NCBI GenBank assembly: GCA_030614485.1
Contig: JAUWTY010000013.1
Location: forward strand, 1 to 13,090
Origin: Methanosarcinales archaeon
GTDB lineage: Archaea > Halobacteriota > Methanosarcinia > Methanosarcinales > Methanocomedenaceae
Length of the DNA: 13,090 nucleotides
Direction: 5' to 3'
The notes under the pieces were generated by a model, which had not been told where the DNA came from, made no database searches, and was given only the letters and a program-made list of their open reading frames with translations. This document shows, piece by piece, positions 8,952 through 10,539 of this stretch. Positions within the stretch are counted from its first letter, which is position 1; the number at the start of each line of letters is the position of its first letter. Position numbers and translations under genes: made by a program.

Positions 8952-8969
8952 CTTTCCAATGCGTTAATG

Positions 8970-8977
8970 TTATATTC
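8970..8977 (+). promoter_or_regulatory. TATA-like element for the gene at 9004
   Basis: TTATATTC is centred about 30 bases before the ATG at 9004. No Shine-Dalgarno match lies between, so a near-leaderless transcript is likely. The element is immediately downstream of the repeat at 8933-8951. Confidence 0.4.
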
Positions 8978-9003
8978 ACTGAAAATAAGAGAAAACATTA
9001 CTG

Positions 9004-9714
9004 ATGACCCATAATAGCCGGAATGCACCAAGATATGACATGCTGTTCGATGGAGGTAATTTCAATGCCACCCTCCTGATAGGTCCTGACCCGTGGGATG
9101 CTTATTACGACTATAGTGTATTCCAGGGAGCCCGGCTCAGGCTCAGGAACATCGGTTTCAGGATTACAGAACATCGCAGCGGGTATGATGAATTAAGGAC
9201 CACATTCAGCTATGATAACAGCGACGTTACCGCGCGCATACGCCTTGTCCACGGCAGGGATTATGATAAAGACCTGCAGGAACTCTGGAAGGAATCTCTG
9301 ATAAATGAGGATGTCATATACCTAAAATCCCATGCAGGATATGGTAAACATATCAGCCTGAGCGACGATGTGGGTATCTTTACTGAAGCAATGAAAGCAG
9401 GATTTGAACATCCAGATAAAAAACCGTATCAATTGTATTATCTTGACTGCTGTAAGAGCGAAATGTATTACAAAGATGCATTCAGGGATTTTGTAGGACA
9501 TGAAGGTGTAGACCTTATCCTGCATCAGTGGTTCTGCGATTACAAGAAGATTGGGCAAATGGCTGTGCTTTTTCGGGAACTGATGGCTGGGTCAGATTTT
9601 GGGACAATTGTTGCAGAAATGAACGAGGAATACGGGATTCCTCATTTTGATGTGGAGGACGACCCTGCTGATATGAAACTTGATAGGAAGATGGTGACAT
9701 GTTCTGTAGGTTAG
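9004..9714 (+). CDS. Unnamed protein with probable caspase-like (clan CD) fold
   Basis: I do not recognise a named family. The 236-residue protein has no signal peptide or membrane segment. Two hydrophobic strands end in residues that look like the clan CD cysteine-peptidase dyad: DVIYLKSHAGYG (103-114) with His110 followed by a small residue and Gly112, and YQLYYLDCCKS (142-152) with Cys149/Cys150. The His-to-Cys distance of about 40 residues is within the range of caspases, legumain and gingipain relatives. A preceding segment RIRLVHGRDYDKDLQELW (78-95) would form the strand and helix before the His. The N-terminal 60 residues contain DPWDAYYDYSVFQGARLRLRN. Which Cys is the nucleophile is unclear, and it may be an inactive homologue. 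The gene stands alone, divergent from hisF, with its own TATA-like element. Confidence 0.75.
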   Translation: MTHNSRNAPRYDMLFDGGNFNATLLIGPDPWDAYYDYSVFQGARLRLRNIGFRITEHRSGYDELRTTFSYDNSDVTARIRLVHGRDYDKDLQELWKESLINEDVIYLKSHAGYGKHISLSDDVGIFTEAMKAGFEHPDKKPYQLYYLDCCKSEMYYKDAFRDFVGHEGVDLILHQWFCDYKKIGQMAVLFRELMAGSDFGTIVAEMNEEYGIPHFDVEDDPADMKLDRKMVTCSVG

Positions 9715-10110: not shown

Positions 10111-10539
10111 TTGCAACAATACATTAACATATTGAACAAAGTCAACTATTCCTCCAGACAAGATTATGAAGAATGGATTCCCATCACAATCCTGAATCTC
10201 GAAAATCGTAGTATGGGCTGGTCTCCCAGGCTAAAGAAAAGCGTTTACATCGATGAATCCACAGACTCCAATACCCTGGAAGAACTCAAAAGGGTCAGGG
10301 AAGCGGATGTATTGATAGCATATGACCAGATGCGTGACCGCACCCGACATATTGAACTCAAGGAATCAGAACGCAAAGAGTTCGACATTATTTATTCCCA
10401 GTATCTTGAAAAGGGTGGGCAGATATCATATATCCGAAAAAAGGAAGGGCGTAAGACACATACCCTGTTCATGCTTGAAGAAGAGTATGGCGATTTTGTT
10501 GTCAGGGAAGTACCCGAAAAAAAGTATCTCTTTGAGTAA
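10111..10539 (+). CDS. Hypothetical protein, charged, soluble
   Basis: I do not recognise this 142-residue protein. It is rich in Glu, Arg and Lys, lacks membrane segments, and reads as a mixed fold: a strand-like WIPITILNLENRS (22-34), a helix SNTLEELKRVREADVLIAYDQM (about 53-74), a charged helix, and strand-like C-terminal segments ISYIRKKEGRKTHTLFMLEE and DFVVREVPEKKYLFE. The start is uncertain: an in-frame stop lies at 10102-10104, and the only early candidates are TTG at 10111 or 10132; the first ATG (10213) would remove 34 residues that look protein-like. No clear ribosome binding site is visible. The codon use is like that of neighbouring core genes, which supports it as real. It is isolated, with an AT-rich gap upstream and a convergent gene downstream. 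Confidence 0.65.
   Translation: MQQYINILNKVNYSSRQDYEEWIPITILNLENRSMGWSPRLKKSVYIDESTDSNTLEELKRVREADVLIAYDQMRDRTRHIELKESERKEFDIIYSQYLEKGGQISYIRKKEGRKTHTLFMLEEEYGDFVVREVPEKKYLFE

Follow-up and report, generated by a model that had tools for sequence, protein, structure and literature searches.

A putative caspase-like cysteine peptidase family in anaerobic methanotrophic archaea

The gene and its protein family

The stretch of DNA analysed here (the window, 13,090 nucleotides of contig JAUWTY010000013.1 from a Methanosarcinales archaeon) harbors a gene for a protein of 236 amino acids (P0001) at positions 9004-9714 of the forward strand, as judged from the ATG start, the open reading frame (ORF), the homologues and the ratio of nonsynonymous to synonymous substitution rates (dN/dS). 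A first-pass annotation had proposed that it is caspase-like (clan CD). The present analysis supports this proposal, as a predicted model of the protein superposes on caspases and the His and both Cys residues of the suspected active site are invariant. With a probability of roughly two in three, we consider the protein to be a small soluble cysteine peptidase made up of one domain, its fold being caspase-like (clan CD type), acting as a stand-alone accessory protease and exchanged between anaerobic methanotroph lineages.

A search of about 5.8 billion proteins yielded 133 homologues at E ≤ 0.01. Those of the 120 listed homologues that carry a name are annotated as hypothetical or uncharacterised, and the organism, where given, is an anaerobic methanotrophic archaeon of group ANME-2, a member of Methanoperedens(aceae) or an uncultured archaeon. 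These 120 sequences and the window protein form the alignment of 121 rows used below. Its profile retrieved 157 proteins at E ≤ 1, and since the 120 best of these all belong to the same family, no wider family came into view. No description of the family was found in the literature searched on caspases in Methanoperedens/ANME and on archaeal orthocaspases. An orthocaspase survey reports 93 archaeal p20 sequences collected by profile (PMC6426788); as the family shows no C14 Pfam match, the method described there would miss it.

Predicted elements and conservation

Two strand-like segments ending in HAG and DCC, about 40 residues apart, had drawn attention to the gene. Both motifs are present, HAG as residues 110-112 (9331-9339) and DCC as residues 148-150 (9445-9453), with His110 located 39-40 residues ahead of Cys149 and Cys150, and the segments correspond to strands 104-108 and 143-148 of the predicted model. 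Helices are predicted at residues 35-49, 91-101, 123-132, 152-164, 184-195 and 199-210, and an extra β-hairpin (residues 61-70 and 73-83; 9184-9252) lies ahead of helix 2. Strand 1 (residues 19-26) and the invariant loop Gly27-Pro28-Asp29 (together 9058-9090) are, from alignment and model, a candidate for the part that L1 plays in the substrate pocket, and the invariant Asp36 on helix 1 (9109-9111) is a candidate acidic S1 residue by comparison with PMC4357240. His110-Ala111-Gly112, with the putative catalytic His, follows strand 104-108. Asp148-Cys149-Cys150-Lys151-Ser152 (9445-9459) stands at the end of strand 143-148 and would supply the nucleophile (Cys150) and an S1 acid (Asp148); alignment, model and motif all enter these two assignments. 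Past strand 169-174, Trp176-Phe177-Cys178 (9529-9537) offers a candidate for the aromatic that L5 contributes to the S1 pocket, again with PMC4357240 as the guide to its role. All these elements are encoded on the forward strand.

Seventeen alignment columns are invariant (G27, P28, D29, D36, G60, F68, Y106, K108, H110, A111, H116, F126, Y146, D148, C149, C150 and S152), so that the three suspected active-site residues are unchanged in 121 of 121 rows. W176, F177, C178, H214 and D216 are each kept in 120 rows and fall in a gap in the last one. The loose motif H[GA]-x20-80-D-x-C-x-S occurs in 61/61 family ORFs and in 0/360 other ORFs of the same loci, which indicates that the His/Cys pattern exceeds chance. 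The family ORFs counted cover 61 of 63 loci, L015 and L047 (one place represented twice) being left out since a longer overlapping frame had been chosen there; several other loci also represent one place twice. Purifying selection on the protein follows from dN/dS values of 0.06-0.16 for the gene against eight relatives.

Profile comparisons

P0001 has no match in Pfam, PHROG or PADLOC, and the single NCBIfam match (E 0.12) and the two matches to PDB sequences (E 0.1) are at chance level. The family profile had no match among PDB sequences, and a Pfam scan of the 121 rows at E ≤ 10 returned only 12 scattered weak families. With respect to recognised clan CD families, Peptidase C14 (PF00656) did not match P0001 up to E 10 and is absent from the 12 families; Peptidase C13 (PF01650) matched one of the 121 rows at E 0.12, which we treat as chance; and C11, C25, C80 and CHAT are absent among the Pfam families at E ≤ 10, the Pfam set including models for all four.

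For profile-profile comparison, C14 and CHAT proteins came from genomes within the same order, those of C11 and C13 from genomes within the same phylum. The aligned sets comprised 14 of 16 fetched matches for C14, 20 of 28 for CHAT, 4 of 6 for C11 and 2 of 7 for C13. One partial and one short match were left out for C14, and fragments, stop-bearing frames and weak matches otherwise. The window's own genome also codes for a CHAT-domain protein (E 3.5e-25, 841-amino acid open frame; L088, G000:C103:1073-1837).

In the best local HHalign alignment to CHAT, which begins ahead of the His110 strand and ends beyond Cys150, the two His are paired and Cys150 is matched to the Cys of CHAT; the best one to C14 pairs YLDCCKSE with a motif of the LDCCHSG type. 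At a relaxed threshold both alignments cover most of the protein, and His falls on His in C14 as well. By absolute standards these scores are weak, with a probability under 6%. When columns of the family were shuffled and templates trimmed, the C14 score was reached in 2/150 controls and the CHAT score in 0/150. Among 44 unrelated neighbour families used as further controls, the best score was 22.7 as compared to 24.3 for C14, and three exceeded the untrimmed CHAT score of 19.0. The profiles of C11 (4 sequences) and C13 (2 sequences) are thin, and with these the dyad was not aligned locally; global HHalign gave no usable alignment.

Predicted structure and alternative readings

The clan CD fold has a six-stranded sheet, with five parallel strands and one antiparallel strand in the order 2-1-3-4-5-6, and five structurally conserved helices. 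Nearly the whole length of the predicted model superposes best on caspases, but the top 50 Foldseek matches do not show the caspase fold. Small GTPases in the 50 rows from PDB (best E 1.0e-3, TM-score 0.24-0.50) and the GTPase-like rows that dominate the BFVD search (one at E 5.0e-4) were rejected as homologues on account of low TM-scores and the missing P-loop; the Ras-type sequence G-x4-G-K-[ST] after strand 1 is absent from the protein, where the loop reads G27-P28-D29-P30.

These Foldseek results, together with the lack of a significant match to C11, C13, C14, C25, C80, CHAT or any other recognised peptidase profile and with the residue following the catalytic His, weigh against an active caspase-type peptidase. 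A Gly beside the catalytic His is kept in all clan CD families (PMC4357240), but position 111 is Ala in 121/121 rows, with Gly at position 112 in 120/121. We therefore file the protein under no named family and call it clan-CD-like. Around the Cys, the D, C and S of the C14 motif D-x-C-x-S-G are found in 121/121 rows, but its Gly is absent, with Glu153 in 116/121. Other clan CD features are present: W176 and F177 provide the aromatic on the loop past strand 5, and in the predicted model His110 and Cys149/Cys150 lie at strand ends. The dyad had been given as His110 with Cys149 or Cys150; His110 stands, and the Cys is most likely Cys150 rather than Cys149.

The missing Gly and the absence of a profile match would suit a protein that kept a caspase-like fold without being a peptidase any longer, its conserved residues binding a ligand or partner as in pseudo-enzymes or regulators. 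We regard this as unlikely. The His, Cys and Asp148 are all retained throughout the alignment and Trp176 in every row but the gapped one, whereas pseudo-orthocaspases, according to PMC6426788, lose the dyad.

The P-loop α/β proteins among the first Foldseek matches suggest another possibility, a Rossmann-like α/β protein whose likeness to caspases is convergent and in which H110, H116, C149, C150, C178 and H214 with D148 and D216 bind a metal, or Cys149-Cys150 forms a redox pair. The strict or nearly strict conservation of H110, H116, C149, C150, C178, H214 and D216 would fit such a site. Considering that caspases give the best superposition over nearly the whole length, that both dyad residues are in register with CHAT and that the sequence has no P-loop, this reading is unlikely as well.

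Distribution and transfer

The gene is found in 40 of 185 genomes of the order, namely 14/17 in the family of the window (f1), 22/34 in Methanoperedenaceae (f3; one of these is a broken copy) and 4/7 in the ANME-3 genus (g149), and in no further genome of the order (0/17 in family f38). The same 40 account for all occurrences among 237 genomes of the class, and a spread sample of the phylum gave 8/392. Each of the 40 genomes belongs to a family or genus containing named anaerobic methanotrophs. Matched by their contig coordinates, HMMV-459A3 falls in genus g1 and S7142MS1 in g2, both listed as ANME-2a in Table 1 of Chadwick et al. (PMC9012536), while HMMV2, of ANME-3, falls in g149 and Methanoperedens in f3. 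The membership of all 40 genomes in such groups makes the gene a candidate for some trait shared by that life style. Family f38 is probably ANME-2c. The McrA of f4 is just 38-44% identical to the others, so that f4 probably corresponds to the ethane-oxidising GoM-Arc1 group. The gene was considered as a strict marker of methanotrophy and rejected as such, being missing in 12/34 Methanoperedenaceae, 3/7 genomes of the ANME-3 genus, 3/17 of the window's family and 17/17 of f38; many genomes without the gene are incomplete.

A family tree of 30 rows places the four ANME-3 proteins together with seven g1 proteins (support 100/98) and separates them from g2 and g3. The protein is 79-83% identical between ANME-3 and g1 and 66-68% between g1 and g3, whereas the order is reversed for McrA (71-76% and 92-93%, respectively). 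Tree and identities suggest that the gene passed between an ANME-2a-like lineage and ANME-3, with ANME-3 as the presumed receiver since the gene is absent from the other Methanosarcinaceae searched. One Methanoperedenaceae genome has partial matches only, with one stop (G432:C49:2259-2651); this broken copy indicates that the gene can decay. Another genome (G443, contamination 6%) has two copies on two contigs.

Promoter and gene neighbourhood

A promoter-like element noticed upstream of the gene proved to be conserved. In the window it reads CGTTAA-N2-TTATAT (8962-8975, forward strand), resembling a B recognition element (BRE) and TATA box, with CGTTAA-N3-TATA at -42 to -30. The form GTTAA-N1-3-TATA, 37-41 bases before the start, is present at 15/15 places (the window and 14 named loci of Methanocomedenaceae genera g1 and g2 and of ANME-3), and 14 of these have CGTTAA; the element is thus kept with the gene among differing neighbours and apparently moved along with it to ANME-3. 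Among Methanoperedenaceae it was found at 1/14 named and 0/7 unnamed loci, and it is absent at the sole g3 locus. About 47 bases leading up to the start codon (8960-9006) form a block that is kept with the gene in g1 and, in its core, in g2 and ANME-3 as well, although the preceding sequence is not kept. The block may serve the gene as its own promoter or operator and may mark a regulon.

The description of the gene as standing alone also holds: the upstream gene, which we take to be hisF, is divergent, the nearest downstream ORF of at least 80 amino acids in the same orientation begins after about 400 bases, and the neighbours vary from clade to clade. That downstream ORF (10111-10539, 142 amino acids, no Pfam match) follows the gene at three distinct places in genus g1 (window, L001 and L002). 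ORF 2-592 of the window has no Pfam match either. At least 11 of 21 intact Methanoperedenaceae loci have a PAC2-family gene downstream on the same strand within 1.2 kb (e.g. L013:6850-7656), a lower bound as flank lengths differ. PAC2-family proteins are known as proteasome assembly chaperones. A functional partnership was considered and left as unproven, the flanks examined of other clades containing no PAC2 neighbour.

A stress or defence role had also been suggested, and neither neighbourhoods nor PADLOC speak for either in particular. If the protease belonged to a conflict or defence system, this could account for the patchy presence and apparent horizontal transfer. In addition, genes for a SNF2 helicase and a SWIM/pRiA4_ORF3-type protein (L009:457-3666, L019:2451-3986) precede the gene at 3/4 ANME-3 loci, directly so at two of them. 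The helicase part of this SNF2 neighbour matches the PADLOC models ZorD/DpdE. We nevertheless rejected a defence context and hold this reading to be very improbable: PADLOC did not match the protein itself, no defence partner is common to the clades in the flanks examined, no relative was found in the viral contigs, phages and plasmids searched, and the gene, under purifying selection, is single copy with two exceptions among the 40 genomes.

Proposed mechanism and significance

The caspase-type peptidase reading is a well-supported prediction, and the protein probably represents a new clan-CD-like family of active cysteine proteases with Cys150 as nucleophile. In the mechanism that we infer, His110, located where strand 3 ends, would activate Cys150, located where strand 4 ends, for attack on the peptide bond. 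Asp148 and Asp29 or Asp36 would form an acidic S1 pocket, and Trp176/Phe177, on the loop past strand 5, would guide the substrate. The invariant Asp148 two positions before Cys150, the placement of Asp29/Asp36 like the acids of MALT1 and TbMCA2, and Trp176/Phe177 predict Arg or Lys at P1, so cleavage probably occurs after these residues, as in metacaspases, paracaspases and orthocaspases. The gene would be driven by its own promoter, and the most likely role would be cutting one or a few cellular proteins; its patchy presence suggests that it is dispensable. A more elaborate version is unlikely: a redox-gated caspase-type protease peculiar to anaerobic methanotrophs, in which exposure of the strictly anaerobic cell to an oxidant induces a Cys149-Cys150 disulfide and the reduced enzyme cleaves at Arg/Lys, with a substrate common to ANME-2a/b, ANME-2d and ANME-3 and a gene that moves with its own promoter.

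If the peptidase reading is right, an undescribed family with His-Ala for His-Gly and an invariant Cys-Cys stands beside the known clan CD peptidases and offers a lineage-linked protease to test in uncultured methane-oxidising archaea. The apparent transfer to ANME-3 with the promoter is a tangible example of methanotroph lineages exchanging genes.

Comparison with known clan CD proteins

With the orthocaspases and metacaspases of family C14, the protein shares the predicted order of elements, an LLIG-type strand 1, the His past strand 3 and D-x-C-x-S past strand 4 (present in 14/14 of the C14 proteins used), apart from the near full-length superposition of the predicted model on caspases. It differs in having HA for HG, mostly E153 for the Gly of CxSG, the invariant vicinal CC and the β-hairpin ahead of helix 2; its 236 amino acids leave no room for further domains, and none of the 121 rows has a C14 Pfam match. 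CHAT proteins (PF12770) align locally through both dyad residues in register, and at the relaxed threshold the region around W176 is also paired with the stretch of CHAT past the Cys strand. Unlike these, the family has no Pfam CHAT match and no TPR or other partner domain, and the residue two positions before its Cys is Asp, as against Ser in the CHAT consensus obtained here.

The predicted specificity can be compared with that of MALT1 and TbMCA2. According to PMC4357240, S1 specificity in clan CD is set by helix 1/L1, L4 and L5; Asp365, Asp462 and Glu500 of MALT1 are S1 acids binding basic P1 residues, and Asp95 and Asp211, among others, are described for S1 of TbMCA2. The S1 acids of helix 1 and L4 (Asp365 and Asp462 in MALT1, Asp95 and Asp211 in TbMCA2) would correspond to Asp29/Asp36 and Asp148 in the archaeal protein, and the L5 aromatic to Trp176/Phe177. 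Unlike the family protein, MALT1 and TbMCA2 are eukaryotic, larger and have Gly beside the catalytic His; TbMCA2 in addition has two extra strands, and MALT1 carries an acid on L5.
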